A DNA stretch of 64,000 bases from Nitrosomonas sp. Lineage in GTDB: Bacteria > Pseudomonadota > Gammaproteobacteria > Burkholderiales > Nitrosomonadaceae. The position numbers and the translations under genes are program-made. The notes beneath the pieces were generated by a model, which worked only from the letters and a program-made list of their open reading frames with translations, did not search any database and was not told the DNA's origin. Position 1 is the stretch's first letter, and the number at the start of each line of letters is the position of its first letter. The stretch is taken from the NCBI RefSeq assembly GCF_021731985.1, contig NZ_JAKFWH010000043.1:1-64000 (forward strand), given 5' to 3'. Below, one piece after another: positions 5,885 through 61,598 of this stretch.

Positions 5885-7231
5885 TCAAGAATCTTTTGTT
5901 TTTCTGACATCAGCTTCACACATTCCGTGCGCGAATTTTACCTGAATTCTATCGCCGGAATGAATTTGTTTGCTGTCACGGATTACGGTGTTTTGCAGGG
6001 TATAGGAGATGCTGTAGCCGCGTTCCAGAACCGATTGCGGATTTAGGTGTGATAACTGTGTTTGTAAATGCTGCAGGTTGACTGACAGTGTTTCGAAATA
6101 GCGGGAAAATGTGTAGCGGAAACGTGCGGCGAATTCTTTTTGCTGCACCTCCAGTCGAACAATACCTGGACTTGCGGCTGCTAGCCGTTGATTGAACTCG
6201 AGTAATTTCCAGTGTTGTTTTTCGATCTGATGTGTCCAAGTCTTGATGAATCGATTCTGCAAATGTTGCAAATGCATGTGTTGCTGTTTGATCCGGTCGC
6301 CTGGATGAACTAAACGATGAGTCAGGATATCCATTTTCTGCATTGCGTATTCAATATGATGCAAAGTGATGCGATACATGCGCTGGTGCAAGGTTTTTAG
6401 GTGGCGGCTTAATTCCTTGTGATCCTTGCTGGACAGTTCAGCAGCTCCGGTCGGCGTGGGCGCGCGGATGTCGGCGACAAAGTCTGCAATGGTGAAGTCT
6501 GTTTCATGGCCGATGCCACTGATGATCGGTATGGAGCTGGCAGCAATCGCAAGCGCTACAATTTCTTCGTTGAATGCCCATAGATCCTCAATGCTGCCAC
6601 CACCCCGGCAGAGTATCAATACATCACATTCCGCTCGCCGGCACGCAATTTTAATGGCATCTGCAATAGTATTGGCGGCTGCCTTTCCCTGCACCAGAGT
6701 GGGGTAGATGATGATCGGCAATGCCGGCATGCGGCGTTGTAATGTCGATAATACGTCACGTAATGCGGCAGTATCCGGCGATGTGATGATGCCGATTTGT
6801 TTGGGGAATGCGGGTAACGGTTTTTTATTTGCGGGGCTGAATAGTCCGGCTTTTTCCAATTTGGATTTAAGTTTTTCAAATGCCTCAAATAACTCACCTG
6901 AGCCGGCACGGCGCATGGTTTCAATGTTCAACTGAAAATCGCCGCGCGGCTCATACAGTGTAACGAGCGCCAGCACTTCGACTTGCATACCATCTTTTGG
7001 TTGCCAATCCATGTATTGATTCTTGTGGCTGAATAGGACGCAGCGTATTTGTGCACTGGCGTCTTTTAGGGAAAAATACCAATGGCCCGACTGATAACAC
7101 TTTAAATTTGAAATTTCACCTTTAACCCACAGTAAAGGTATGTTCTGTTCCAGAAATTGCTTGGTGTTGCTGTTTAATTCGCTTACCGTAAGCACTTTAT
7201 GGAGAAGACTTGAGATTGGAAACAGACTCAT
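5885..7231 (-). CDS. xseA: exodeoxyribonuclease VII large subunit
   Basis: Large subunit of exonuclease VII, which degrades single-stranded DNA into short oligonucleotides in mismatch repair and damage processing. The N-terminal OB-fold (LWVKGEISNLKCYQSGHWYF) is followed by the catalytic region with FPKQIGIITSPDTAALRDV, CRGGGSIEDLWAFNEE and the conserved SGIGHETDFTIADFVAD and RAPTPTGAAEL. A long helical, coiled-coil region and the C-terminal NPQSVLERGYSI motif complete it. At 448 residues it is full length. The small subunit gene xseB is not in the window. Its upstream region carries the inverted DnaA boxes at 7427-7449. Confidence 0.95.
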   Translation of the reverse strand: MSLFPISSLLHKVLTVSELNSNTKQFLEQNIPLLWVKGEISNLKCYQSGHWYFSLKDASAQIRCVLFSHKNQYMDWQPKDGMQVEVLALVTLYEPRGDFQLNIETMRRAGSGELFEAFEKLKSKLEKAGLFSPANKKPLPAFPKQIGIITSPDTAALRDVLSTLQRRMPALPIIIYPTLVQGKAAANTIADAIKIACRRAECDVLILCRGGGSIEDLWAFNEEIVALAIAASSIPIISGIGHETDFTIADFVADIRAPTPTGAAELSSKDHKELSRHLKTLHQRMYRITLHHIEYAMQKMDILTHRLVHPGDRIKQQHMHLQHLQNRFIKTWTHQIEKQHWKLLEFNQRLAAASPGIVRLEVQQKEFAARFRYTFSRYFETLSVNLQHLQTQLSHLNPQSVLERGYSISYTLQNTVIRDSKQIHSGDRIQVKFAHGMCEADVRKTKDS

Positions 7232-7415
7232 TTTGATATTGTGTAATAATCCACATAGTTTGCTGAAACAGCGTGATTAATGTAATTCTAGAGACCGTTT
7301 TGGTCAGGAAGTGTAAATTAAGTTAATGTTTATTAATGTATTTGTTTTAGATTAAAAAACAGTCAATCTGGAAAAGCTGTTTAGGTTTGATAACTTAATT
7401 CTTAAACTTGTTACC

Positions 7416-7449
7416 TATTCACAAACTTATCCACAGAAATTGTGGATAA
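7416..7449. promoter_or_regulatory. inverted pair of perfect DnaA boxes (copy 1 of a 34-bp repeat)
   Basis: TTATCCACA (7427-7435) and TGTGGATAA (7441-7449) are perfect consensus DnaA boxes in opposite orientation, 5 bases apart. The whole 34-base block 7416-7449 recurs exactly at 45168-45201. It lies in the 364-base gap between the divergent xseA and exbB genes, an AT-rich stretch where promoters for both are expected but not individually clear. It is also a hairpin-forming palindrome. No replication genes are nearby. Confidence 0.7.
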
Positions 7450-7595
7450 AAAATCAGCCATTTTTCCTGGCTGAAAATGCACGATCAAGATTCATTCGTG
7501 CCGAATTGGTTACTTAGTTATAAAATAAGCAAATCAGGTAGTATAGTACGCCACAGAATAATACCTGGATCTACAGTGAGTGAGGAGACTATCAC

Positions 7596-8204
7596 GTGTT
7601 ATCTTTAATTCAAGCGGCCGGCTGGCCGATCTGGCCAATCATTTTCGCTTCAGTAGTTGCCTTAGGCATTATTGGGGAACGGATGTGGACATTGCGTTTA
7701 AGTGTTATTTCACCTAAAGAATTATTGCCTAAAGTACTCAGTGAATATAAACGCGGTGGCGTCAATCCGGAGATGCTTGCGCATTTGCAGAAACATTCTC
7801 CATTGGGAAGAATTCTTGCTGCCGGGCTTAAAAATGTGAAAAGCTCGCGTGAAATCATGAAAGAGTCGATTGAAGAATCTGGTCGTGTGGTTGCGCATGA
7901 TCTGAGCCGCTATCTGACTACGTTGGGGACTATTGCTGCGTTGAGTCCTTTGATGGGTTTGTTTGGTACTTTGGTCGGTATGATAGAAATCTTCGGTTCG
8001 AATTCGCCTACCGGAAGCAACCCGGCGCAGCTAGCATATGGAATTTCTGTCGCCTTGTATAACTCAGCATTTGGCATACTCGTGGCGATTCCCAGCATGA
8101 TTTTTTATCGCCATTTTCGTGCAAAAGTCGACGATTTTGTTATTGAAATGGAATTGCAAGCTTTAAAATTAATAGAAATTGTGCATGGAGAGCGAGAAAG
8201 TTGA
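7596..8204 (+). CDS. exbB: MotA/TolQ/ExbB family proton channel subunit
   Basis: Inner-membrane channel protein that uses proton flow to energise an outer-membrane or envelope process, normally with an ExbD/TolR partner. It has 202 residues with an N-terminal helix (WPIWPIIFASVVALGIIGER) and two later helices in the conserved block TTLGTIAALSPLMGLFGTLVGMIEIF and ISVALYNSAFGILVAIPSMI. The start is GTG 7596, with GAGGAG at 7582-7587. No exbD follows; the next 458 bases hold no intact gene. ExbB versus TolQ cannot be separated from sequence alone. Confidence 0.85.
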   Translation: MLSLIQAAGWPIWPIIFASVVALGIIGERMWTLRLSVISPKELLPKVLSEYKRGGVNPEMLAHLQKHSPLGRILAAGLKNVKSSREIMKESIEESGRVVAHDLSRYLTTLGTIAALSPLMGLFGTLVGMIEIFGSNSPTGSNPAQLAYGISVALYNSAFGILVAIPSMIFYRHFRAKVDDFVIEMELQALKLIEIVHGERES

Positions 8205-8382
8205 ATTGTTTGCAGGATAGGTCATTGTGTTAGTCACGTGTTGTGTGCATAGCCTCAAGTCTAAATAATTCTGGATCTGTGGTGATTCATATGTCGCTTA
8301 TAAGAATTCAAAGATTCTGTTATTTGTTGGTTAGTCCATATTAAGGCCATCGGAAAGGTGGCTTTAATCACGTCAAATATGA

Positions 8383-30295: not shown

Positions 30296-31381
30296 TTAAA
30301 CTGATTCACTCAGTATGGTGTGTAATGTTGTGCAAAATTGAGAGTTTTCATCGGGTGTACCTACCGTTACACGCAAACAATTTTCTAATAATGGATGTGT
30401 GCCATCAAGATTCTTGATGAGTATCTTGCGTTGCTTAAGTGCCTGAAAGATTTGGCTGGCTGCATGGATACGAAACAAAATAAAATTAGCGTCCGAAGGA
30501 TATACCTCAATATTTGCTATTGTACCAAGAAATGTTCTCATTTTTGTGCGTTCCGACTTGATCGCTTCCGCTTGCTCTGATAATACTGCGGTATGGTGCA
30601 ATACCTTCTCAGCAATTAATTGCGTCATTATGCCAATATTATAAGGCAAACGCACCTTTTCCAGTTGCACTAACCATTCAGACCGGCCGATTAATAGCCC
30701 CAGTCTTAGGCCGGCCAATCCTGACTTGGACAGTGTCCGCATTAACAATAGATTGGGGTGCTGGGCTAGTTTATCCATAAAGCTTGCATCAGCAAATGCA
30801 TGGTAAGCTTCATCGACAACAACAATGCCAGAAGTTGCCTGAATAATGCTTAAAATAGCTGCGGGGTCAAATAAATTTCCGGTTGGATTGTTAGGATAGG
30901 CCAGGAAAATGACGGCAGGTTTATGTTCTGCAATTGCGGCTAACATGGTTCCCAAATCGAGCGAGAAATCTTTTTGTAAAGGTATTCCAACATATTGAAT
31001 GTTTGCGAATGCGGCGATCATTTTGAACATGACAAATGCAGGCTCAACACTCATTAATACTGCACCAGGCCGAGCTAGTGCCATGGCAATGATCTGGATG
31101 ATTTCATCCGATCCATTACCTAGCAGGATATCCATGTCATCGGAAATAGCCAAAGCCTGACGTAATGTTGCTTTAAGTTGAGCGGCACTTGCATCGGGAT
31201 AGCGGTTTACCGGCGCATTTGCCGTTAATTGTGCAATTTCGTCACGTATTACGAGTGGTAACGGGTATGGGTTCTCCATCGCGTCCAGCTTGATCATGCC
31301 TGTTGCAGGCGGTACATGATAAGCGGAAAGCGCGAGAATTTCCGGACGGATAATTTGATCGGGATGATAAAAATTAGGCAT
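30296..31381 (-). CDS. hisC: histidinol-phosphate aminotransferase
   Basis: Pyridoxal phosphate enzyme transferring an amino group to imidazole acetol phosphate. 361 residues, fold type I. The cofactor Lys is in [27 protein letters not shown] and [12 protein letters not shown] are the other hallmark blocks. It is the first gene of the his run in the window; no hisD or hisG is present here, so those lie elsewhere. Confidence 0.94.
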
Positions 31382-32529: not shown

Positions 32530-33717
32530 TTATAATAAACGACTCATATCACCAGCACTAAACCCGATAAGGGATTCAGAAAAGTTTTTTCCAAAAGCAA
32601 TGACCTTAAACAATTCACCCATTTCAGCAGGGCTGATCAGTTTTTGCAGTTGACTGGATTGTGGCAAAAAGCTGTTCGTATCTTCTGCGGGTGTTTGTGC
32701 AAGGATTCCGGTAATGCCGCAATTAATCAAAAAATAAGCTTGGGTGGTATAACCTAAAAGTGGTAATCCGCTATCTTCCGCAGCCTGAGTGATTGCACTA
32801 AAATCAACATGGCTGGTGATATCTTGCAGGCCAGGCAGGTAAAACGGATCATCATGTGCATAATGCCGGTAGTGGCACATCAGTGTGCCTTGATTGCGCT
32901 GGGGATGATAGTACTCGCTACGGCCAAAACCATAGTCAATCAATAGAATGACGCCTTGTTGTAAGATGCTTGTCAGGCTACGCATAAAGTGGCCAGCGGT
33001 AAGATTAATTTCGCTTACATAGGAATAGGCTAAGCGATTGTCCGGATTGATCTGAGGCAGTAACTGTCTGGCACTGTGACTGAGTTCTGCATGATTAATA
33101 GGGCGATCTTGCCAGGCAAACTGATTGTTTTGCCAAGTAACACCGCGTTCAAACAACTCATTATTATGCCACGTCACAATATGGACGGGCATTGCATCCA
33201 GCACTTCATTGGCGAGAATGGTGCCAGTAAATTGAGCGGGTAATTGCTCTAACCATTCGATTACCTGCACAAGGTGCGGCGCTTTATTGGTGAACAGTGC
33301 TTGTTGCCGCTGCCGGAGTTCGGCACTGACTTCCAGAATAAAATATTTTCCAGGTAAAGCATTGGATTTTTCCAATTCGAGCAGTATATCCAGTGCCAAT
33401 CTTCCGGATCCGGCACCAAATTCGAGAATATCAGCGTGTTTAATTTGTTGGGAAATCTGTAAAACCTGTAATGCCAATGTGCGGCCAAACAACGAAGAAA
33501 TTTCCGGTGCCGTGACAAAATCACCCGCGCTGCCCAGTTTGGTTGCTCCGCTACTGTAATAACCCATTCCCGGTGCATACAACGCCAGATTCATAAACTG
33601 CTCAAATGAAATCCAACCGCCCGCTGCATGAATTTTATCGCGAATTAACGTTTGTACAGCGTGACTGTGAGCCAGTGCGATTTCACTGGCAGGCGGCAAG
33701 GTGGCATGTAAAGACAT
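32530..33717 (-). CDS. class I SAM-dependent methyltransferase, MidA/DUF185 family
   Basis: Member of the family that includes mitochondrial NDUFAF7, which methylates an arginine of complex I; the bacterial substrate is not established. Conserved parts are FMNLALYAPGMGYYSSGATK, GDFVTAPEISSLFGRTLA, ILEFGAGSGRLALDIL (SAM site) and ILANEVLDAMPVH. The frame is open to 33900, but MSLHATLPPASE (ATG 33717) fits the family start, giving 395 residues and leaving about 85 bases before the divergent pteridine reductase. Confidence 0.88.
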   Translation of the reverse strand: MSLHATLPPASEIALAHSHAVQTLIRDKIHAAGGWISFEQFMNLALYAPGMGYYSSGATKLGSAGDFVTAPEISSLFGRTLALQVLQISQQIKHADILEFGAGSGRLALDILLELEKSNALPGKYFILEVSAELRQRQQALFTNKAPHLVQVIEWLEQLPAQFTGTILANEVLDAMPVHIVTWHNNELFERGVTWQNNQFAWQDRPINHAELSHSARQLLPQINPDNRLAYSYVSEINLTAGHFMRSLTSILQQGVILLIDYGFGRSEYYHPQRNQGTLMCHYRHYAHDDPFYLPGLQDITSHVDFSAITQAAEDSGLPLLGYTTQAYFLINCGITGILAQTPAEDTNSFLPQSSQLQKLISPAEMGELFKVIAFGKNFSESLIGFSAGDMSRLL

Positions 33718-33801
33718 AAGCAGGAATATTTCTTTGTGGTAAATTGCAAAAGTTGTCAATGAAACGAGCCATAGTTTAGCAGCACTTTGAAGGAGGCGTA
33801 T

Positions 33802-34542
33802 GTGCAAGGGAAAGTGATATTGGTTACTGGTGGCGCAAAGCGGGTGGGTGCCGCCATCTGCCGCAGGTTGCATGCACAAGGTGCCAGATTGGTTGTGCAT
33901 TACCGGTCTTCACTCGATGAAGCCAAGGTATTGTACGATGAATTAACTCAAAAGCGTCCCGATTCAGTGGCTTTGGTGCAGGCAGATCTGCTCGACACAG
34001 AATTATTGCCCGAATTGATCGAAAAGGCAGCCAATCGGTTCGGGCAACTGGATGTATTGATTAACAACGCCTCGAGTTTTTTCCCGACACTACTTCAGCA
34101 CTGTACGCTGGAAGATTGGGACGATCTGGTTGGCAGCAATCTTAGGGCGCCACTGTTTTTATCCCAAGCGGCAGCTCCATTTCTGAAAGTGCAACGTGGC
34201 TGCATCGTGAATATCGTCGACATCCATACCGAACGGCCATTAAAGAATTACGTAATCTACAATGCTGCCAAAGGCGGGCTATTATCACTGACCAAGTCGC
34301 TGGCCGTGGAAATGGCGCCCGACGTGCGTGTCAATGGTGTTTCGCCAGGGCCTATTTTATGGCCGGAAGATGGGGAGTGGGCCGACGAAGCGGCGCGCCA
34401 ACATATTATCGCCAGTACACTGCTCAAACGCTGCGGCGAACCGGATGATATTGCCAAAACAGTGCAGTTTCTGATTGTCGATGCCCCTTATATCACCGGG
34501 CAGATTATTGCTGTGGATGGCGGGCGCAGTATTCATTTGTAA
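33802..34542 (+). CDS. pteridine reductase, short-chain dehydrogenase family
   Basis: NADPH-dependent reductase of the SDR family, close in form to FolM/pteridine reductases that reduce dihydrobiopterin or dihydrofolate. The cofactor motif is VTGGAKRVGAAICRRL, with Arg as expected for NADPH preference; the active site has YNAAKGG (YxxxK) and the family segment NNASSFFPT. AAGGAGG at 33790-33796 sits five bases before GTG 33802, so that start is chosen over the TTG at 33787. 246 residues. It faces away from the MidA gene. Confidence 0.88.
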   Translation: MQGKVILVTGGAKRVGAAICRRLHAQGARLVVHYRSSLDEAKVLYDELTQKRPDSVALVQADLLDTELLPELIEKAANRFGQLDVLINNASSFFPTLLQHCTLEDWDDLVGSNLRAPLFLSQAAAPFLKVQRGCIVNIVDIHTERPLKNYVIYNAAKGGLLSLTKSLAVEMAPDVRVNGVSPGPILWPEDGEWADEAARQHIIASTLLKRCGEPDDIAKTVQFLIVDAPYITGQIIAVDGGRSIHL

Positions 34543-34644
34543 AAACTAGACAACTACCTGTTCTGATCAGTAGTTATTTAATTGTGATCAGTAATGATAA
34601 TTAGTCTATTCTTTAGAAGTTTTGCATAGATTTTAGATATAAAA

Positions 34645-35688
34645 TCACAAGCCTAAATTTGATTTAATCGAGAAAATAGGAATAGATTCTGTCGTAGTTT
34701 TAGACTGTGATTCAGCTGAAGTTGCCTGCTCTTCAGGATTCCTTAAGGATTTTACAAAACAATACCCGGGGGAGGAATTAAGTGGATAAAGCGTATTTCG
34801 TCTGCGGATGAGTTCATGAAGAGACTGATTACGAATGTTTCCGATGCGTCCAAATCCCTCTCGCGCATCTGGGCAGACATAAATTTCACCAGTATTCTCA
34901 ACTGTAATCCCAAATCTGTAAATGCCACATTGCCCTGCTTCAGTTGCAGAAGTGAAATTTCGATCAGCATATTTGCGTCCTATAGCTCGCAATTTATCGG
35001 CTTGCTTTTCTACCAAAAAATTCCAAGTTAGATCGGCTTCACCAACCTTAACTGGTGAACGACAAGTATAAAATATCTGACGATCAGCACACCATTCATC
35101 TATCTCTGGTATAGAAGCCGCAGATTGAACGGAGACAACCGAATTAATTCCAACTCGAGAAATGATTCTGTTGTTATCAATCAGTGGCTCGTGGAAGTGC
35201 TCGACGAGTAAATCAAGGTTTCTTCGAATGCGAGCGAATACACCCTTCTTACCAACCATTGTTTCATAAATCTTTTCATCAAAGGAATCCACTTTGAGAT
35301 AAAGCGAAATATCCGCCTGTTTAAGGCGAATAATCTTTTCACGATCCAAGAAATGACCATTAGTATAAACTACTACCCAGAGACCAGATCGATTTGCTTC
35401 TTCGAGGATGCTCCAGAAATCTGGATCGGCTAATGGTTCACCTCGACCTGGCATAACTACAACCTTGGCACCGCAGTTCGCTGCTTGATTTATCAAGCGT
35501 TTCTTTTCGTCAACATTAAGCTCATTTGGTGAGGGTCTAAGGTTCTTCAATCCCACGAAACAATAAGGGCAACGGTAATTACATGCCGATGTCATGTTGA
35601 GGGCAAGATAAAAAATACCTTCTGGAGATGTTGTCTCCAATTCCCCTTGTGACCAATGATAACCTCGTAATGCAATAGTTAATGTCAT
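34645..35688 (-). CDS. radical SAM protein with short SPASM/twitch-like tail
   Basis: 347 residues. The iron-sulfur motif is CNYRCPYC (CxxxCxxC), followed by the SAM-binding MPGRGEPLADPDF and VVVYTNGHFL. The C-terminal part has CGIYRF, IYVCPDAREGFGRIGNI and SSPGYCFVKS, enough Cys for one extra cluster of the SPASM/twitch kind. Such enzymes usually modify peptides or small molecules. It is the last of five genes in one direction and overlaps its neighbour by four bases. Like the rest of that operon, it looks more AT-rich than the his genes. The substrate is unknown. Confidence 0.82.
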   Translation of the reverse strand: MTLTIALRGYHWSQGELETTSPEGIFYLALNMTSACNYRCPYCFVGLKNLRPSPNELNVDEKKRLINQAANCGAKVVVMPGRGEPLADPDFWSILEEANRSGLWVVVYTNGHFLDREKIIRLKQADISLYLKVDSFDEKIYETMVGKKGVFARIRRNLDLLVEHFHEPLIDNNRIISRVGINSVVSVQSAASIPEIDEWCADRQIFYTCRSPVKVGEADLTWNFLVEKQADKLRAIGRKYADRNFTSATEAGQCGIYRFGITVENTGEIYVCPDAREGFGRIGNIRNQSLHELIRRRNTLYPLNSSPGYCFVKSLRNPEEQATSAESQSKTTTESIPIFSIKSNLGL

Positions 35689-36719
35689 AGTTTAGTGTCA
35701 ATACTCCCAGTAGTATGAAGCAGAGTGGCATGGGGCTTCAATTCCTTGCCATCGCCAGAAACTCCATGAGCAATTGCAGACCAAGAAAAACCATTAGTAA
35801 TACAAATCTCTAAAAAACTTGTTAATTGCTGATCACTCAAGAGTTTTGTTTGATCAAATAACTGGTTCATGAATCGAACAACAGCCGGGTTAGTAAATTC
35901 ATAAGACTGTAGATTCTCAGCAAGATTTCTGGTTCCATTAAGATCTTGAGTTGTTTTATTACTCTTGTGTTCATGAAGCAAAGTGCGGTCATTTGCAAAT
36001 GCCACAATACCTCTACTATTTTTTTCCTCTTCAACATCGAATAATGCAAGGTAAAAAGGAATTTTCATGACGCGATGCACATCTAATTTACACAGTGTTT
36101 CGCCTGCTTTCTCATCATTTCTCAGTACTTCATCAATAAAGAAGTTGAGTGATTCGCTATATTCAGCATAAGGTACACTAGGATTCAATTCTTGAAGGAG
36201 ATTTTTAATTGATCTTTCATCGAGAAATATTAATTCAACCTCAAGTCGTTCCTGATATGTGTTTCTATGTTTAATAAGAATTTTCCTAAATTCCTCACAG
36301 AAATCGTTTGGCCAGTAGTCAGAGTAATTTTGATTTAAAGATTTCCGACTATATGTTCTCCATGGATGAGCTTTTAATGAGTATATTAGCGGAGTTGAAA
36401 GACAAAGCTTGACGCTTTTATTAGCAGTGCTCATTCTTTGGCAAATACGATCTTCAAACGATTTTAATCCTACAGTTATGGGTACAAAACCCAATTTCTT
36501 TTGTTGTGTGTTTTCGTCTTCATTTAACTTTCGGTTAGCTTCATCCAAACGAGCTGTTATTTTTTCTAATTCCGCCTTTTGTTCTATTTCCTCAGGTCTT
36601 TTTATGACAAACCAAAAAATAAAAGCAATAAAAGCGCCAATAAGAGCGCTAATTGCAGCCCAAAATAGTTCATTTACGCAAGTGGATTGCTCAAGAAGCT
36701 TGAGGTTTAAATGAAGCAT
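35685..36719 (-). CDS. membrane-anchored protein of unknown function
   Basis: 344 residues, family not recognised. An N-terminal helix (LFWAAISALIGAFIAFIFWF) is followed by a short coiled coil (EIEQKAELEKITARLDEANR) and a cytoplasmic domain of about 250 residues. The middle part loosely recalls phospholipase D-like sensor domains (NKSVKLCLSTPLIYSL, LEVELIFLDERS, RGIVAFANDRTLLHEH) but no HKD motif is present, so no such catalysis is claimed. The C-terminal tail is Gly/His/Thr-rich. One base overlaps the binding-protein gene and four bases the radical SAM gene, so it is an integral part of this operon. Confidence 0.7.
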   Translation of the reverse strand: MLHLNLKLLEQSTCVNELFWAAISALIGAFIAFIFWFVIKRPEEIEQKAELEKITARLDEANRKLNEDENTQQKKLGFVPITVGLKSFEDRICQRMSTANKSVKLCLSTPLIYSLKAHPWRTYSRKSLNQNYSDYWPNDFCEEFRKILIKHRNTYQERLEVELIFLDERSIKNLLQELNPSVPYAEYSESLNFFIDEVLRNDEKAGETLCKLDVHRVMKIPFYLALFDVEEEKNSRGIVAFANDRTLLHEHKSNKTTQDLNGTRNLAENLQSYEFTNPAVVRFMNQLFDQTKLLSDQQLTSFLEICITNGFSWSAIAHGVSGDGKELKPHATLLHTTGSIDTKL

Positions 36720-37768
36720 TATTCATTATTATTTGTTGATATGTTTTTTTTAATTATAGAGTCAGATTGCGATTTTTCGACAAAGTAGTTAGTAAAAAAT
36801 TTTTCTCGATTTAGAATGGTATTTTTATTGGCAAGAGTCCCTGATGTCATCATAGAATGATACACATTTTCTACTCCTTTGGGATTAATGATTCCGTCCA
36901 AACTATAAAATTCCTTCAGCTTATCAAGCGTTTTCGCATATCTAATCTTATCTGACCCAACAATTTTTCCTGGTAAAGCATCAGTGATTTCCTGTGGAGT
37001 ATGTTCTCTAATCCAGCTGAGTGCACGGATATGAATATTAACTACTTTCTGCACTAGATCAGGGCGATTGTCGATAACATCCTGTCGCGTTAAGACACCC
37101 GCTTGGTTGTATACTCCACCTAAATAACGTTCTGTATCTCTTAAAGTGTTCAAATCAGCAAGAATGAAAGCTTTTCCTTGCTCAACTAGGGTAGATGCAA
37201 AGGGCTCTAAGGCGATTCCTCCTACAATTTGCTGATTTTTCAGCGCTGGAGGAAAAGTTGAAGATCCAACATCAAAAATAGTTACATCAGCAGGGTTTAT
37301 GTTAGCATTGCTAAGCAACGATGCCAAAACCATGTGTGTAGCAGAGCCTTTAGAAGTGACGCCAAGAGATTTTCCTTTCAAATCAGATATATCTTTAATA
37401 TCGTTGCGCAATCTTGAATCTACAACTAATGTCATACCAGGAAGCTTATTGAGCAATACTACCATCCGCAAATTATCTTTTCTTTGAATTGCTGCTTTAA
37501 ATGCGTGATCTATGCTATTGAGACTAAAGTCTACTTGATTTGCCAAAAGTGCTTGGGCAGTAGCAGTTCCACCTTGTAAGAAAATGATTTCTGGATCCAA
37601 GCCTTCATCAATAAAAAAACCCTTCGCAACAGCAAGATCGAAAGGCATAAAGTGTACTAAGTGTCCGCCACTTGCAATTTTTATCTTTTCAAGATGAGGT
37701 TGCTGGCACAAGACATTACTTGATATTAATAAAAAGAATAAAGATATGATGAATGATAAGTTTTTCAT
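36719..37768 (-). CDS. ABC substrate-binding protein, NMT1/SsuA/TauA type
   Basis: Periplasmic solute-binding protein, 349 residues. A signal peptide (FIISLFFLLISSNVLC) precedes HLVHFMPFDLAVAKGFFIDE and GLDPEIIFLQGGTATAQALL, which place it with the NMT1/THI5-like binding proteins for sulfonates, nitrate or thiamine precursors. Further on are LKGKSLGVTSKGSATHMVLA and YLGGVYNQAGVLTRQDVIDN. The ligand is not evident. It overlaps the permease by four bases. Confidence 0.85.
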   Translation of the reverse strand: MKNLSFIISLFFLLISSNVLCQQPHLEKIKIASGGHLVHFMPFDLAVAKGFFIDEGLDPEIIFLQGGTATAQALLANQVDFSLNSIDHAFKAAIQRKDNLRMVVLLNKLPGMTLVVDSRLRNDIKDISDLKGKSLGVTSKGSATHMVLASLLSNANINPADVTIFDVGSSTFPPALKNQQIVGGIALEPFASTLVEQGKAFILADLNTLRDTERYLGGVYNQAGVLTRQDVIDNRPDLVQKVVNIHIRALSWIREHTPQEITDALPGKIVGSDKIRYAKTLDKLKEFYSLDGIINPKGVENVYHSMMTSGTLANKNTILNREKFFTNYFVEKSQSDSIIKKNISTNNNE

Positions 37769-38544
37769 ATTTTACTTTCCTCCGATTGGTCAACAACCTG
37801 CCACTTAGTGAAATGTGATTCAATGCGTTTAAGAAGAACATCGAGGATAGCAACAACAATTGTCAAAAGAGCCAATCCTGTCATGACACCAGTAGCATCG
37901 AAATTTGATTGAGCATTGTTAATGAGAAAACCAATGCCAGCACTGGAACCAATATACTCACCTAGAATTGCCGCGATAATGGCAAAGCCAACACTGACAC
38001 GAAGACTGGCGAATGTCCAAGACACAGTGGCAGGAAGATAAATGTGCCTTAGAATTTGGTAGCGAGTAGCTCCTAATACAGCTGCATTCTTAAGTAATAT
38101 CGGATTGATTTCCTTGAAACCACGGTAGGTATTGAAGAAAACTACAAAAAAGACAAGGGAGATCACAATAACAACTTTAGAGAGAAACCCAAACCCAAAC
38201 CAAAGAATTATTAATGGTGCAAAAGCAATACGGGGCATTGCATTCATTATCGTAATAAAGGGTTGTAAAATGGCATCAATTCTCGGATTAGCGGCAAATA
38301 AGAAGCCTAATGTAATTCCCAATATCAACCCCGATATGAAACCAACTCCTGCTTCTGATAATGTCACACTCAAATGCTTGAAAATTAGATCTTCTTCTAA
38401 CCAAAATTGGAAGTTTCTGAATATGAGGCTGGGCGAACTAAAATAATAGACATCTATTGCTCCATATTTAATAGAAAACTCCCAGATTGTTATAAGCAGA
38501 ATAATTAAGCTCCAGCGCAAAACCTGTAAATGCCATGATGTCAT
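37765..38544 (-). CDS. ABC transporter permease, SsuC/TauC type
   Basis: Inner-membrane permease of 259 residues with about six helices. The EAA loop is visible as YRGFKEINPILLKNAAVLG followed by ATRYQILRHIYLPATVSW. Other parts (EAGVGFISGLILGITLGFLF, AFAPLIILWFGFG) are typical of sulfonate/nitrate/taurine importers. It pairs with the binding protein and ATPase on either side. The cargo is unknown. Confidence 0.88.
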   Translation of the reverse strand: MTSWHLQVLRWSLIILLITIWEFSIKYGAIDVYYFSSPSLIFRNFQFWLEEDLIFKHLSVTLSEAGVGFISGLILGITLGFLFAANPRIDAILQPFITIMNAMPRIAFAPLIILWFGFGFLSKVVIVISLVFFVVFFNTYRGFKEINPILLKNAAVLGATRYQILRHIYLPATVSWTFASLRVSVGFAIIAAILGEYIGSSAGIGFLINNAQSNFDATGVMTGLALLTIVVAILDVLLKRIESHFTKWQVVDQSEESKI

Positions 38545-38548
38545 TTAG

Positions 38549-39322
38549 TTAATCCTGTTGTGTTAATTCCACCCATAGTTCTCTAACAAGATTATGAAAA
38601 TCTATATTTCCGTAGAGTGCATCTAAATTACGCGGACGTGGTAAAGGATTTTCACGTATTGATTTAATTTTTGCCGGTCTTTGAGTCAAAATTACGATTC
38701 TATCAGAGAGAGCTATCGCTTCTTGGACATCATGAGTAACCAGGATAATGGTAGTATCTAATTGCTCCCACAAGCGTACAACTTCCTTCTCTATCTGTAA
38801 TTTGGAATAAACATCAAGTGCACCAAAAGGTTCATCCATCAGCAGTAAATGTGGATGAGTAGAAAGTGCAGCTGCTAAAGCTACTCGTTTGCGCATCCCT
38901 TGTGAAAGCTGCGAGGGATAGTAGTCTTCAAATCCTTTGAGTCCTACAGCATGCAACCATTTGATTGATACTTCTTCACGACACTTATCAGGAATTTGAG
39001 TTGCAATAAGAGAGAACTCGATATTGCCATACGCAGTTTTCCATGGTATTAAGGACTCTTCCTGCCACACAACAGCAATTCGATTTCGATCATTTAAATT
39101 CTTTGTTGGTTTGTCAGGATACGAAATAGAACCATCATCTAGACTGTTCTGGCCAGCCAAAATATTCAGCAAAGTTGATTTTCCACATCCTGATGGCCCT
39201 AGAATGGCTAGGAATTCTCCTGTATACATATCTAGGCTAATGTCATTCAAGACAGGTAAGCTATTCCCTTCTTTTGTAAAAGATTTATTTGCATTCCTGA
39301 TTTTTAGGAATTGTTCTGCCAT
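38549..39322 (-). CDS. ABC transporter ATP-binding protein, SsuB/TauB type
   Basis: First gene of the five-gene operon. Walker A is LGPSGCGKST, the signature is LSQGMRKRVALAAAL and Walker B is LLLMDEPFGALD, with VTHDVQEAIALSDR for the switch His. These are the usual SsuB/TauB/NrtD features. The signature begins LSQGM, a common variant of LSGGQ. An open frame reaches 39361, but MAEQFLKIRNA (ATG 39322) is the natural start. About 257 residues. A short AT-rich gap separates it from yraN. Confidence 0.88.
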   Translation of the reverse strand: MAEQFLKIRNANKSFTKEGNSLPVLNDISLDMYTGEFLAILGPSGCGKSTLLNILAGQNSLDDGSISYPDKPTKNLNDRNRIAVVWQEESLIPWKTAYGNIEFSLIATQIPDKCREEVSIKWLHAVGLKGFEDYYPSQLSQGMRKRVALAAALSTHPHLLLMDEPFGALDVYSKLQIEKEVVRLWEQLDTTIILVTHDVQEAIALSDRIVILTQRPAKIKSIRENPLPRPRNLDALYGNIDFHNLVRELWVELTQQD

Positions 39323-39418
39323 AGCATTCTTTTTATGATTATTTTGAAACCAGTATTTCAAATATCATAACAGAAAGAATGAAGAACAAAGTGGTATAGA
39401 CCTGAAATGACGAGTAGA

Positions 39419-39757
39419 TCATTCACCAAACGCATTTTTGATCCATTCAATTTCCTGGCCATTTACACCTGATAGCAGTAGCGCATCAAAACGGCAGGAT
39501 GGTTCGTTGTTTAATCCAGATAAATAATGCCGTGCGGTGCGCAGTAGTTTGGCCTGTTTTGCCGGTGTGATACTGGCTGCAGCGCCGCCGAATATTTCGT
39601 TGGCTCGCATGCGGACCTCGATAAAAACCAAAGTGGTGCCGTCACGCATAATCAGGTCAATTTCTCCAAAACGGCAGCGGTAGTTCTGTGCGATCAGCAC
39701 TAAATGTTGCCGTTGCAAATACGATACGGCTATTTGCTCGGCATCACTGCCCTTCAT
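39419..39757 (-). CDS. yraN: YraN family predicted endonuclease-like protein (UPF0102)
   Basis: 112 residues with the restriction endonuclease-like core: GSDAEQIAVSYLQRQ, NYRCRFGEIDLIMRDG and LVFIEVRMRANEIFGGAAAS. The E-ID-ExR pattern matches the family, whose function is still unclear. The longer open frame runs back into lpoA; ATG 39757 is chosen because MKGSDAEQ is the usual start. It overlaps the lpoA stop by 14 bases. The yraN-lpoA pair divergent from rsmI is a classic arrangement. Confidence 0.9.
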   Translation of the reverse strand: MKGSDAEQIAVSYLQRQHLVLIAQNYRCRFGEIDLIMRDGTTLVFIEVRMRANEIFGGAAASITPAKQAKLLRTARHYLSGLNNEPSCRFDALLLSGVNGQEIEWIKNAFGE

Positions 39758-40862
39758 TTTCTGTGGTATTTTTTTGTATATCCAGAAGCCGTACTTTACC
39801 TTGCTCAAATTGAGCAGCAACGGCTTCACGGATAAATTGATTGGGTGGTGCAAAATGAATATACCCGGTTACACCGTCAAAAGAAATTTCTTCAACGGAT
39901 TGTGGTTGCAGTAGGTAGGTCATCAAACGGAACGCATCAATACCCAAGGCATAAAGCCGTTCCATGTCGGGACTCTGGGCTTTGTCGGTGTGGCGGTAGG
40001 CCATGACAGCAGGATGATCGGGTTGTATTAACCAAGGCATATCGAGAAACTGGATGCCATTCAGGTCATTATTGAGCAGGAAGTTGTTGGCGCCGGTAAA
40101 AATCTGCGATGTGGCATACACTGGCACATCCGGGTCAAGGTATGTCCGCAGCACTCGTGATTTGGCGGAATCCAGAGCTAGGAAAACCAGATGATTGCTG
40201 CCTACTGTCAAATTGCGAAATTGCTGCAGTCTGGCTGGATCCTCGGAATAGCGGAATGATTCAGCGGTTTTGCCTTCCTCACTTTGCCATCGTTGTATGA
40301 AAGCATTTTGCAAGCGTTTGGATAACGGGCCGTCATCGCCGATGACGATGGCATGGCTCCTGCCGCTATTCTGCGCCAATTTTGCGATTTGACCGGCCTC
40401 TGTTTCCATTTGCAAGCCAAACAAATAAAATTTGGGTGGCAATGTCGCAGTATTATCCACTGTATTCAATGCTAAAGTATGTACTTTTAACAGGTTGCTG
40501 GAAGCCATGGCCGAAACACCATCGCGGGTAAGTGGCCCCACAACGAATACAGCGCCAGCAGTTACTGCTTCATAATAAGTAACGAGAATATCGAGTGGAT
40601 CGTCCGTGGTGGAATATATCCGGATGATCAATGGTAGTGGTTGTCCGCGCATTGCGGCGGTTACAAAACCGTCTTTTACGATGTTGGCCGCCGCTCCAAA
40701 TGACGGCGACTCTAGCGGTAATAGCAGCGCAATATGTGGCACTAGGGGCGGTTCGGACGCGCTGTACGGTTCAGAATGTTCTTCCGGATGAGTGGCCATT
40801 GCCATCTGGCTGCCGTATAGTGCAAAGATTAGCGCCAGAACAATTGTCAGAAAACGTTGCAT
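39744..40862 (-). CDS. lpoA: LpoA-like penicillin-binding protein activator
   Basis: Periplasmic protein with a Venus-flytrap (Peripla_BP-like) fold, the family that activates penicillin-binding protein 1A in enterobacteria. The 372-residue protein has a signal (FLTIVLALIFALYGSQMAMA) but no lipobox Cys and no N-terminal TPR domain, unlike E. coli LpoA. Conserved parts are PHIALLLPLESPSFGAAANI, VGPLTRDGVSAMA, and FDGVTGYIHFAPPNQFIREA near the end. ATG 40862 is chosen over far upstream starts because the signal peptide begins there. Confidence 0.8.
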   Translation of the reverse strand: MQRFLTIVLALIFALYGSQMAMATHPEEHSEPYSASEPPLVPHIALLLPLESPSFGAAANIVKDGFVTAAMRGQPLPLIIRIYSTTDDPLDILVTYYEAVTAGAVFVVGPLTRDGVSAMASSNLLKVHTLALNTVDNTATLPPKFYLFGLQMETEAGQIAKLAQNSGRSHAIVIGDDGPLSKRLQNAFIQRWQSEEGKTAESFRYSEDPARLQQFRNLTVGSNHLVFLALDSAKSRVLRTYLDPDVPVYATSQIFTGANNFLLNNDLNGIQFLDMPWLIQPDHPAVMAYRHTDKAQSPDMERLYALGIDAFRLMTYLLQPQSVEEISFDGVTGYIHFAPPNQFIREAVAAQFEQGKVRLLDIQKNTTENEGQ

Positions 40863-57475: not shown

Positions 57476-57877
57476 TTAGATGTTGTTATTCTTTTGCTCG
57501 GTATATAGTTTGACTTTAATAACTTGGCCCAACATTTGGAAATGTTTGTCGAGCGAAAATATTGCACAGTGGTTTTCCTTTGCATTTTGAGCAATGATGA
57601 GATCGGGAATGCCAATCCCATTGGATCCGGATTTTAAGCATTTTAATTGCGTATCCATAATATCGTCCCAATCAATTTGCAGCGGTAGTCGATTTATTTC
57701 GCTCAGCAATTTAACTACTTCTGCTTGGCGCTTCAGCTTTAAGAAGGGGATTAATTCGGCCAAAATCAAATCGTTGGTAACGATAACGTTTTCGTCGATG
57801 AGATCATCCAGTTCGGCTGATTGATTACCGGTTCGAAAATAATCGATCCAGACAGACGTGTCGACCAATACCGCCAT
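57476..57877 (-). CDS. vapC: VapC-type PIN domain toxin
   Basis: Predicted ribonuclease toxin, 133 residues. The four acidic residues of the PIN site are visible: Asp in MAVLVDTSVWIDYF, Glu in LILAELIPFL, Asp in GIPDLIIAQNA and Asp in IFSLDKHF. The start overlaps the stop of vapB by one base. VapC toxins usually cut tRNA or rRNA; the target here is unknown. Pairs with the antitoxin at 57877-58071. Confidence 0.92.
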   Translation of the reverse strand: MAVLVDTSVWIDYFRTGNQSAELDDLIDENVIVTNDLILAELIPFLKLKRQAEVVKLLSEINRLPLQIDWDDIMDTQLKCLKSGSNGIGIPDLIIAQNAKENHCAIFSLDKHFQMLGQVIKVKLYTEQKNNNI

Positions 57878-58071
57878 TACTGGCGCACTCGAATTTCATC
57901 AAGATTAATATCCAATTCGATTTTCCCCTTGAATTTCTTAAGATCCGAAATTTTTGATTTCCGGATTAACTCCTCTAGTGCCAATACGATAACAGCGGTT
58001 TTGGTTTCGGCGTGGGTTACTCGCATTGCTTCGTTTAACAAATTTTCGGGTAAATCTAGAGTGGTTCTCAT
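57877..58071 (-). CDS. vapB: VapB-type antitoxin (ribbon-helix-helix)
   Basis: 64 residues. The N-terminal MRTTLDLPENLLNEAM is a ribbon-helix-helix DNA-binding segment, followed by VIVLALEELIRKSKI and a charged C-terminal tail that would wrap the VapC active site. AAGGAGG lies just upstream on the minus strand. It should repress its own operon; paired palindromes lie ahead of it. Confidence 0.92.
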   Translation of the reverse strand: MRTTLDLPENLLNEAMRVTHAETKTAVIVLALEELIRKSKISDLKKFKGKIELDINLDEIRVRQ

Positions 58072-58643: not shown

Positions 58644-61598
58644 TTGGTAACAGAGATTGAGTTCAGAGAGTTATCGAAAAGCGATGAGTCTCCAATACTA
58701 GAATACAAGAAAGAGTGGTATTGGAATGACTCAACCCCTAGTAAAGATATGGCTAACAAATGGGGCGAATTACTAAAAGATGTTATATCTCTATCTAATG
58801 GCTACTTGAACTATGTCGGTCAATCTAGATACTTGGTGTTTGGCTACTCTGAGTCAGATCAAACTCTACATGATATAAATCTAAGTAATATAAAACGACT
58901 AAGTAATATAAAGTTGTTTAAGAAACATCTATTAGAAAAATTAGAAAGATACACTTCTCCGGCACTTCTAAACTTAGATATTTTTATTCTGACTATTGAT
59001 GGAAAGGATATGTTGATTCTTAAAATACCATCTCCTTTTCATTTAACAGAATTAAGAAACGAATTAAAAACGAAGACCAGAACGTTGGATACTGGAACAG
59101 TGCTTGTCCGAAAAGGGCAATGCTCTGATGAAGTTAGGATAGCATCACCGTCAGAAATACGTGAACTACAAACCGAGTTTGCTAGATATAAATCTAGTCA
59201 TCAAATCAACAAAGAAACAAGTGAAGATAAAATCGATAAATTTGCGAGGAGCATAGAAAAAACTGTTCAGCTTTACATTAATAAGAATTCCGGGTTCTCA
59301 TTAGAGATCAACTATCCCATCAAGGTAAAAAATTGGAAGGAAGGCGTTGTATTTGAAGTATTTAAATTGACTGATGCCTTCGGTTCTTTTCGTGAATTTA
59401 TTTACCTGCATAGCGACTCTAATCAAAGTAAGACTCTGGGTTACATTAAGCAAAATAATCTTATAGAAATACTTAACAAGTCAATAATACTAACAGACAA
59501 GCCTAAAATTAAGGATGTAGAGAAGAGAAAAGAGAATATTAAATCCATATTTGGGACCAGTTTTGTATATTTTATTGATGAATTTGGTTATGAGTTTTTA
59601 TATAAAGATTGCATTCTTGACTACCATGAATACAACCTACCAATATATATCGATAGTCTCTATGACGAAGATGAACGTAAAGATTTATCGGCATTTAACA
59701 AATTAAAGGAATGGTTTTATTCAGATTCTCAGCCATTATTTGTCATTAAAGGCCACGGAGGAATTGGAAAGACAACGCTTGCAAAACAGTTCTTGGACTG
59801 TATTTTTAAGGAGAATAAAAATTCTGGAATATTATTTATTGATTCCAAGGAAATTATAGATGAATTAGCAAGAAATGCTGGTCCAAATAAAAAGATCGAA
59901 GATGTATATGATTTCTATGAGGCCCAAGTAGCTGTTGGTAACGAAGAAAACTCTAAATTTAGCAAAGAACTGCTGAAGCTCTCAATGGATAATGGAAGCA
60001 TAATTATAGTATTGGATGGTATAGATGAAGTTATAGCAAAATTAGGAAGTAGGTTTGATGTTGATTCTTTTATTTCCTCAGTTTCCACTGAATACACATC
60101 AGATTTAAATCGAACCAAAATATTAATAACATGCCGCGATCATTTTTGGAATGATATTGGAAAAAATATTCTTGTTCCAGAAATAACATTAAAAGCTTTT
60201 AATGAGACCTTGGCTGAAGAGTTTTTTGTCAAGTCATTAAATAGTGATGATAAAAAAATACGAAAAGCCCTAGAGATAGGAAGAAATCTGGCTATTGAAG
60301 ATCCTGAGAATGAAGGCGTGTCCTCAGAACTAGTTTTCATACCTTTTTTGCTTGATATGATCTCGTATCTTATCAAGACAAAACATGAAGATTTTTCATC
60401 TCATACTTCACTTGATAGCAATATTCTTTCACAGAAAAATCATACTGACTTCTTAGTTGCTAGCGTATGTAATCGAGAAGTTACAAAGCTTGAAACCCTA
60501 GACATAAATAAGCAAGTTAAGCTTTTTATGGAAATTTCAGCGAGAAAAGAAAACGGGATTAGCCTCTATGATATAAAGTCAGTACTCAATTCGATTACAG
60601 ATTCAATTGTGGATGATCAATTGATCGAGAAAATAAAAGGGCATCCTCTTCTTATATGCTCAGAAAACACTTTATCCTTTAGATACGATGTTTTTAACAT
60701 ATATTTCAAGACACTGTTCTTAGTGAGTTTTTTCAAGAACATGGATGTAAACAAGCTAGATGAAAGAACTGCAAGTATAATAAAAGGCTATATTAAATAT
60801 GATAGTAGCTTCACTGAGGAATTGTGTAAAAGAATTCAATTTGATGATGATTTGGTCATTTTCTGTATAACCATAATTGAATTTCTTTCAGAATCAGCAG
60901 AACAAAAAAAAGAAACGATTGTATCCGCAGTATTAGTATTCTTGCTATGCGCACTTCAAAAAACAGAAGGATATAAATTAAATACTGAGAAACGAACAGA
61001 TTTAATTGAGAAGTTGTTTTCTGACGGCACACAAATCACTGGATTATGTTTAATAGATATTTTTGGAGAAGGTAATGATAGGCCTATATTCGATTTTAGA
61101 GGAAAACAGCTAACTAATTGCAGCTTTGATAATTTCGAGTATTTCTGGGAGTGTCTCATGGATGAAAAAACACGATTCAGGTATTCGTTTTTCAGAACTT
61201 TAGAGCCTAGAGATGGAATTAAAATCAAAACCTGGAGTAATCTTTTTTCTGAAGGCTGCGATATTTCCTCAATTCAACATTTGATAAGTAAGAAAGAAAG
61301 TGAAATTAGATCTAATACTAAAATAGTTCGCGATGATTTAATTAAGATTTTTAGGTTATTTTACGAGAGAGGAAATTTTTATCCAAGAAAGCAAGGACAC
61401 ATAAGATCTAAGGTTTTTACATCAAAACTATTACCAATACTTTTAGCGAAGAAAGTAATAAAGGAATTTCGTGACCCAAAGAAACCAACTATGGAACAAT
61501 ATGTTGTTAGTGATGAGTATAAATCTGTCATAAGCTATATTGAGCAAGGAAGTCATTGTGTTGAGCTATTTAAGCTTGCGGATGAGCTTTCAACCTAA
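58644..61598 (+). CDS. AlbA_2/Schlafen-NACHT STAND NTPase, probable antiphage defence protein
   Basis: A 984-residue AT-rich gene with a TTG start (AGGA about 10 bases upstream). The N terminus is an AlbA_2/Schlafen-like domain: DESPILEYKKEWYW, WGELLKDVISLSNGYL and RYLVFGYSES. After a linker comes a NACHT/STAND ATPase with Walker A GHGGIGKTTLAKQF at about residue 370, Walker B IIIVLDGIDEVI and sensor KILITCRDHFW. The C-terminal half is helical, with a short pentapeptide-like stretch (FDFRGKQLTNCSFDNF). NACHT proteins of bacteria are known phage sensors, and AlbA_2 would be the effector or nucleic acid-binding part. It lies beside a toxin-antitoxin pair and transposase remains, typical of defence islands. 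Phage target and activity unknown. Confidence 0.82.
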   Translation: MVTEIEFRELSKSDESPILEYKKEWYWNDSTPSKDMANKWGELLKDVISLSNGYLNYVGQSRYLVFGYSESDQTLHDINLSNIKRLSNIKLFKKHLLEKLERYTSPALLNLDIFILTIDGKDMLILKIPSPFHLTELRNELKTKTRTLDTGTVLVRKGQCSDEVRIASPSEIRELQTEFARYKSSHQINKETSEDKIDKFARSIEKTVQLYINKNSGFSLEINYPIKVKNWKEGVVFEVFKLTDAFGSFREFIYLHSDSNQSKTLGYIKQNNLIEILNKSIILTDKPKIKDVEKRKENIKSIFGTSFVYFIDEFGYEFLYKDCILDYHEYNLPIYIDSLYDEDERKDLSAFNKLKEWFYSDSQPLFVIKGHGGIGKTTLAKQFLDCIFKENKNSGILFIDSKEIIDELARNAGPNKKIEDVYDFYEAQVAVGNEENSKFSKELLKLSMDNGSIIIVLDGIDEVIAKLGSRFDVDSFISSVSTEYTSDLNRTKILITCRDHFWNDIGKNILVPEITLKAFNETLAEEFFVKSLNSDDKKIRKALEIGRNLAIEDPENEGVSSELVFIPFLLDMISYLIKTKHEDFSSHTSLDSNILSQKNHTDFLVASVCNREVTKLETLDINKQVKLFMEISARKENGISLYDIKSVLNSITDSIVDDQLIEKIKGHPLLICSENTLSFRYDVFNIYFKTLFLVSFFKNMDVNKLDERTASIIKGYIKYDSSFTEELCKRIQFDDDLVIFCITIIEFLSESAEQKKETIVSAVLVFLLCALQKTEGYKLNTEKRTDLIEKLFSDGTQITGLCLIDIFGEGNDRPIFDFRGKQLTNCSFDNFEYFWECLMDEKTRFRYSFFRTLEPRDGIKIKTWSNLFSEGCDISSIQHLISKKESEIRSNTKIVRDDLIKIFRLFYERGNFYPRKQGHIRSKVFTSKLLPILLAKKVIKEFRDPKKPTMEQYVVSDEYKSVISYIEQGSHCVELFKLADELST

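Follow-up and report, generated by a model that had tools for sequence, protein, structure and literature searches.

A compositionally foreign operon in Nitrosomonas sp. that combines an NMT1-class ABC importer, a 344-residue membrane protein, and a radical SAM enzyme

We describe a compositionally foreign operon of five minus-strand genes in a stretch of 64,000 nucleotides (nt) from the draft genome of Nitrosomonas sp. (contig NZ_JAKFWH010000043.1, positions 1 to 64,000, forward strand; this whole stretch is called the window). In order of transcription, the genes encode the ATPase, permease, and substrate-binding protein of an ATP-binding cassette (ABC) importer, a membrane protein of 344 amino acids (aa), and a radical S-adenosylmethionine (SAM) enzyme. 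We favor, with confidence about evenly divided, the reading that this is a horizontally acquired metabolic operon for small-molecule uptake followed by radical modification, in which the membrane protein would serve as tether or regulator. That an imported molecule is modified or sensed, as an earlier reading of the sequence alone had proposed, is an inference. A literature search, judged from titles and the beginnings of abstracts and with most subscription journals outside its reach, found no published description of this gene set; the combination was not found described, while its parts belong to known superfamilies.

Gene order, composition, and insertion site

The features of the block are as follows.

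38549-39322, minus strand: ABC importer ATPase, first gene, 257 aa from the ATG at 39322 (ABC_tran, 2.4e-31)
37765-38544, minus strand: ABC importer permease, 259 aa (BPD_transp_1, 7.7e-29)
36719-37768, minus strand: NMT1/THI5-family substrate-binding protein, 349 aa (NMT1, 8.2e-22), with an N-terminal signal-like hydrophobic stretch at residues 3-21
35685-36719, minus strand: 344-aa protein with a transmembrane-like helix at residues 21-39, a charged helix to about residue 74, and then a remainder without a recognized fold
34645-35688, minus strand: radical SAM enzyme, 347 aa (Radical_SAM, 2.6e-20), with the cysteine signature described below
34543-39418, no strand assigned: inserted segment from SDR stop to yraN stop, 4876 nt, exact ends approximate

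All five frames are open and lie where the sequence-only reading had placed them, and the families that it had given for the ATPase, permease, NMT1 binding protein, and radical SAM enzyme held. An alternative TTG start at 39361 is possible for the ATPase. The same reading had described overlaps throughout the block; the last three junctions do overlap, by 4 nt (permease and binding protein), 1 nt, and 4 nt, but the ATPase and permease genes are separated by a 4-nt gap. The genes are packed too tightly to leave room for a precursor gene between them, and complete open reading frames (ORFs) at its two edges reach at most 27 aa. Promoter-like sites were not above chance (12 versus 15.1 expected), and the terminator-like sites (8 versus 3.4 expected) all lie within genes. 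No Rfam riboswitch (for thiamine, guanidine, or another ligand) was found upstream; positions 33500-40500 gave four matches (E values up to 5), all below the gathering score and none of them a riboswitch.

The five genes have a GC content of 0.355-0.413 and a GC content at third codon positions of 0.27-0.35, compared with overall GC contents of 0.513 for the neighboring SDR gene and 0.479 for the LppC gene. Their codon-usage distances are 0.402-0.465, compared with 0.204-0.403 for the 25 other window ORFs of at least 259 aa, with a yardstick that was built from the non-island ORFs themselves and so favors a contrast with the operon genes; some shorter window ORFs also have high distances, up to 0.478. 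The impression that the block is AT-rich relative to its flanks was therefore borne out by GC content, third-position GC content, and codon usage. Gene packing, composition, and the Pfam assignments together support a single, compositionally foreign operon in which an NMT1-type importer is encoded together with a radical SAM enzyme.

The AT-rich block is a 4.88-kb insertion. It is flanked by two convergent genes, SDR and yraN, whose stop codons delimit the 4876-nt segment. The flanks had been named as his and yraN regions; yraN (UPF0102) was confirmed, but a class I/II aminotransferase gene at 30296-31381 was all that was seen of a his region. The LppC gene that neighbors yraN was found in 49 of the 61 sampled genomes of the genus, this one counted, and we compared 12 loci fetched from the 48 others. 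At seven of the 12 (L049, L051, L052, L053, L054, L056, and L058) the SDR and yraN stop codons are 7-43 nt apart, and four (L048, L055, L057, and L059) had no SDR match within the fetched stretch. The remaining locus, L050 (genome G020), carries at the same junction a 1.46-kb segment (6918-8381) with ORFs that read as an IS3-like transposase, and the convergent intergenic spot thus appears to tolerate insertions. Because the flanks of L049 are 92-93% identical to those of the window, the operon was probably gained recently. L048 is slightly closer to the window than L049 at yraN-LppC, but it has other genes at the junction. No target-site duplication was recognized at the junctions or among the repeats, and no integrase was seen, by reading, among the listed window ORFs of at least 80 aa.

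The importer, the 344-aa protein, and the radical SAM enzyme

The first three genes encode an NMT1-class ABC importer in one operon, with Pfam scores above the cut-offs for the binding protein (NMT1, 78.6 bits against 20.5), permease (BPD_transp_1, 101.2 against 26.4), and ATPase (ABC_tran, 109.6 against 25). They share these families with importers of the SsuABC, TauABC, and NitT class, and among the NCBIfam models listed their resemblance is to proteins of the Ssu, Tau, Nit, and Sao kinds. None of the operon proteins reaches the cut-off of an NCBIfam model listed, the models being the best 25 of 203 for the ATPase and the best 25 of 68 for the radical SAM enzyme. The window proteins differ in this from the named subfamilies. 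An aliphatic sulfonate importer was set aside (SsuA_fam, TIGR01728, 89.0 bits against a cut-off of 163.5), as were a TauA identity for the binding protein (23.6 against 304.25) and a Sao importer (SaoX, 42.8 against 300; SaoP, 117.7 against 295; SaoA, the top model listed for the ATPase, 192.5 against 360). The description "SsuABC-like" thus applies at the superfamily level, but not at that of SsuA, TauA, or SaoX. The solved chain nearest to the binding protein is 3qsl (1.8e-34), with SsuA, THI5, and nitrate-binding chains far weaker. With the importer models below their cut-offs and 3qsl as the nearest chain, these comparisons do not point to a particular ligand.

The 344-aa protein has one strongly hydrophobic stretch by hydropathy (residues 21-39). 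This stretch falls within a single long helix (residues 2-74) that was modeled at moderate confidence (block predicted local distance difference test [pLDDT] values of 58-89 to residue 70), which supports the membrane anchor proposed earlier; a coiled coil, also proposed, is plausible from the modeling. The two single-sequence models have mean pLDDT values of 41.0 and 33.9 and are unreliable beyond the helix. A phospholipase-D-like (PLD-like) fold is a possible reading by eye; the protein has no HxK....D motif, and its Pfam matches include no PLD family. Family searches gave three weak matches in Pfam (E, 0.11-0.19), two in PHROGs (E, 0.16 and 0.33), one in the PDB (E, 0.024), and none in NCBIfam or PADLOC. 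Among 61 genomes (E, 1e-3), only its own matched. At E 0.01, and leaving its own genome aside, there were three matches in a class sample of 369 genomes and four in a phylum sample of 398; these matches, at 14.4-20.7 bits, were taken as chance. One of them, at L063, sits in a large ORF that looks unrelated by reading; in a crude control against 1025 ORFs it ranked first and L061 second, both having been preselected from the 398 genomes by their match. Pattern scans of genome and viral contigs, which detect close relatives only, and tblastn searches of plasmids and phages found none. By sequence comparison, the protein is without a credible relative in the collections searched.

The radical SAM enzyme (Radical_SAM, 73.7 bits against a cut-off of 29.5) carries the CX3CX2C motif as C36, C40, and C43, followed by GRGEP at residue 81, C200, C254-x12-G-x4-C272, and C310. 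The SPASM rule, as given in PMC6231123, is a seven-cysteine motif, CX9-15GX4C-gap-CX2CX5CX3C-gap-C. C254-x12-G-x4-C272 matches the start of that rule (CX9-15GX4C); the later cysteine cluster is missing, and just C310 remains. Pfam SPASM scored 18.5 bits, below its cut-off of 21.5, and Pfam gave the enzyme no further domain, leader-binding or otherwise. The enzyme had been called SPASM-like, and we would retain the term for an incomplete, three-cysteine version (C254, C272, and C310), but a full SPASM domain appears to be lacking. These three conserved cysteines probably hold one auxiliary Fe-S cluster. A Twitch domain is a shortened SPASM domain with a single auxiliary cluster. In MoaA, a Twitch-type enzyme, three cysteines hold the auxiliary cluster and one iron site stays open (PMC9012708). 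By analogy, the three ligands might leave an iron site open for substrate. The window enzyme resembles MoaA/Twitch-type enzymes in its CX3CX2C motif and three conserved C-terminal cysteines, but it scores only 52.2 bits against the MoaA model (cut-off, 284.05), and its C254 and C272 conform to the opening part of the SPASM motif.

An incomplete SPASM/Twitch signature would also suit an enzyme that modifies a ribosomal peptide, with the importer taking up peptides or precursors, and the top NCBIfam core match (among the best 25 of 68 models) is to the sactipeptide maturase StsB, at 83.3 bits. That score lies far below the StsB cut-off of 625, however, and we saw neither a leader-binding Pfam domain nor a precursor gene among the short ORFs at the operon edges. 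NMT1-type importers are known for small molecules. Maturation of a ribosomally synthesized and posttranslationally modified peptide (RiPP) is accordingly very improbable in our judgment.

The radical SAM gene was absent from the 84 other genomes of the genus that were searched (E, 1e-12) and is thus present in one of 85; in the class sample, only its own gene was found (E, 1e-18). Six other genomes in the phylum sample matched at E 1e-14 or better. Two of these (G809, locus L070; G568, locus L071) carry the cysteine signature, as do plasmid genes from Azospirillum (L017) and Sinorhizobium (L016, L077, and L078). The other four read as MoaA-, NirJ-, or HpnH-like, without the signature, and were set aside. 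Among plasmids, 165 records matched and 30 were listed, so further subfamily members are possible; the loci of eight plasmid matches were inspected, and the signature was absent from those of Cereibacter, Rhizobium, Treponema, and Paraclostridium and from L079, an unannotated record. Pattern scans of genome contigs and viral contigs, and a viral scan with the G568 protein, found no close relatives. In a viral-contig scan with the five-member alignment described next there were at least 44 loci, and none of their listed ORFs (E, 1e-5) has the signature.

An alignment of the window enzyme with L071, L070, L017, and L078 showed C36, C40, C43, GxGEP, C200, C254, G267, C272, and C310 to be invariant, seven cysteines in all; the three C-terminal ones, invariant in the five aligned members, may mark a Twitch domain. 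The signature pattern was composed after this alignment, which leaves L016 and L077 as the only outside tests, both of them close to L078. In leave-one-out profiles, the window enzyme scored 144.8 bits versus 66.2 for the best nonmember, and the G568 protein scored 162.6 versus 82.7. Identity of the window enzyme to L070, L016, L017, and L078 is 27.6-29.0% over most of the enzyme. In a tree, the G568 protein groups with the rhizobial-type members (support, 97/95), and the window enzyme stands beside them (94/94), along with an unresolved Cereibacter enzyme.

Related loci and the proposed function

At the G568 locus (L071), genes for a permease, an ATPase, and an ABC_sub_bind binding protein are followed, 24 nt on and on the same strand, by a gene for a fusion protein:

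7405-10221 of L071, minus strand: fusion protein, 938 aa, with N-terminal hydrophobic stretches and a radical SAM portion that starts near residue 600

The importer is complete (ABC_sub_bind, 1.9e-53; BPD_transp_2, 7.6e-21; ABC_tran, 7.3e-26). The N-terminal region of the fusion is probably membrane-spanning, with a best 19-residue hydropathy mean of 1.85 versus 2.56 for the 344-aa protein. Its middle part had no Pfam match and one weak PADLOC match (GajB; E, 0.0027). Two parts of this middle region resemble each other (score of 66 versus a shuffled mean of 43.5, reached by 5 of 500 shuffles) and are perhaps a duplicated domain. G568 is a single genome, 78% complete, from another class of the same phylum, and there was no L071-type match in 7 other genomes of its family (E, 1e-20) or in 47 others of its class, those 7 included (E, 1e-40). 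The locus thus resembles that of the window in having a complete ABC importer followed by a probable membrane-spanning region and an enzyme of the same subfamily, but its importer belongs to another family (ABC_sub_bind and BPD_transp_2), its membrane part and enzyme are fused, and its N terminus is not detectably homologous to the 344-aa protein.

The five other loci share the cysteine signature but differ in their surroundings, with no ABC importer, no 344-aa protein, and an agmatinase-family partner instead. In Azospirillum, a DMT transporter gene lies upstream and overlaps the radical SAM gene, with an agmatinase-family gene downstream; G809 has the same arrangement by reading of its ORFs. 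The three Sinorhizobium genes stand with an agmatinase-family gene and an ATP-grasp gene. In Sinorhizobium and Azospirillum, these pairs of an agmatinase-family gene and an uncharacterized radical SAM gene are carried on plasmids.

We favor uptake followed by modification because the operon is tight, no precursor peptide was found, and at four loci (window, G568, G809, and Azospirillum) the enzyme gene has transporter genes a short distance upstream. In the periplasm, the NMT1-family protein would bind a small organic compound, which the permease and ATPase would bring into the cell; in the cytosol, the radical SAM enzyme would convert it via 5'-deoxyadenosyl radical chemistry. The N-terminal helix of the 344-aa protein probably anchors it, leaving the remainder in the cytosol, and by analogy with the G568 fusion the protein would most simply tether or regulate the enzyme at the importer. 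The purpose would likely be salvage or detoxification of a compound and not modification of a self-made peptide. More tentatively, and on balance rather unlikely, this may be a previously undescribed kind of system in which interchangeable ABC importers feed a membrane-tethered radical SAM subfamily with a distinct cysteine signature, coupling uptake to radical chemistry at the membrane, with separate genes in the window and a fusion beside another importer in G568. If importer and enzyme cooperate, the importer ligand would reveal the substrate of an uncharacterized radical SAM subfamily, ordinarily the difficult part; an importer-fed, membrane-tethered radical SAM enzyme would be unusual, and the 344-aa protein would offer a handle on a new membrane partner.

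Several observations weigh against coupled uptake and modification. The tree does not place the window enzyme as sister to the G568 fusion, and only 14% of 200 bootstrap trees unite the seven subfamily members; because the tree grouping is not firm, it is mainly the cysteine signature and the profile scores that support the subfamily. The alignment of the 344-aa protein with the membrane part of the G568 fusion (score of 57 versus a shuffled mean of 46.2) was equaled in 32 of 500 shuffles, and homology to that N-terminal part was rejected as not significant. Around nine relatives of the binding protein within the same order (L007-L015; about 1.5 kb to either side), there was no radical SAM match, and an ABC importer stands at just one further subfamily locus. 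The sequence-only reading had looked to recurrence of the 344-aa protein with the radical SAM enzyme as support for one system, an expectation that was only half borne out. That protein recurs nowhere in the collections searched, but a subfamily enzyme does occur by a different ABC importer, fused to a membrane part, in one genome; at the remaining members found (Azospirillum, G809, and Sinorhizobium), an ABC importer is missing.

The same observations could be explained if an ordinary importer and two unrelated genes had traveled together, cotranscribed without a common pathway: no second copy of the exact gene set was found, other subfamily genes accompany an agmatinase-family gene, and none of the nine relatives of the binding protein has a radical SAM gene nearby. 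Against this stand the overlaps of 1 or 4 nt at the last three junctions, the shared codon use of the five genes, and the second locus, in G568, where an importer, a membrane part, and a radical SAM enzyme again occur together. We consider such a passenger island unlikely; were it correct, the block would still illustrate cleanly how genes are gained at a junction between convergent genes.

A different function would be that of a sensing or conflict module, in which the importer would deliver or gauge a ligand, the 344-aa protein would sense or act, and the radical SAM enzyme would respond by making a signal or toxic nucleotide, much as viperins make ddh-nucleotides. Consistent with this are a membrane protein without relatives, a radical SAM gene confined to 1 of 85 genomes of the genus, an insertion spot that by reading holds an IS3-like element in another congener, and PADLOC cross-matches, to pVip (4.8e-16) for the radical SAM enzyme and to mad3 (1.3e-28), with weaker ones to other models, for the ATPase. 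However, the pVip matches span just part of the core (residues 30-186), the viperin NCBIfam model scored 51.8 bits against a cut-off of 180, short of a prokaryotic viperin, and the ATPase matches fit, by reading, generic ABC ATPase similarity. PADLOC gave no match for the 344-aa protein, binding protein, or permease, and, to our knowledge, known defense systems do not typically include complete nutrient importers. We regard a module of this kind as quite unlikely.

Other features of the genome and window

Ammonia monooxygenase (AMO) genes were present in 18 of 31 sampled congeners, which suggests a genus of ammonia oxidizers, but were not found in this draft genome. Elsewhere in the window, an AT-rich gene (GC, 0.32) at 58644-61598 on the plus strand encodes a 984-aa protein with a NACHT-type NTPase domain and is a possible defense gene. 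Just upstream of it, two minus-strand ORFs (57476-57877 and 57877-58071) read as a VapC/VapB-like toxin-antitoxin pair.

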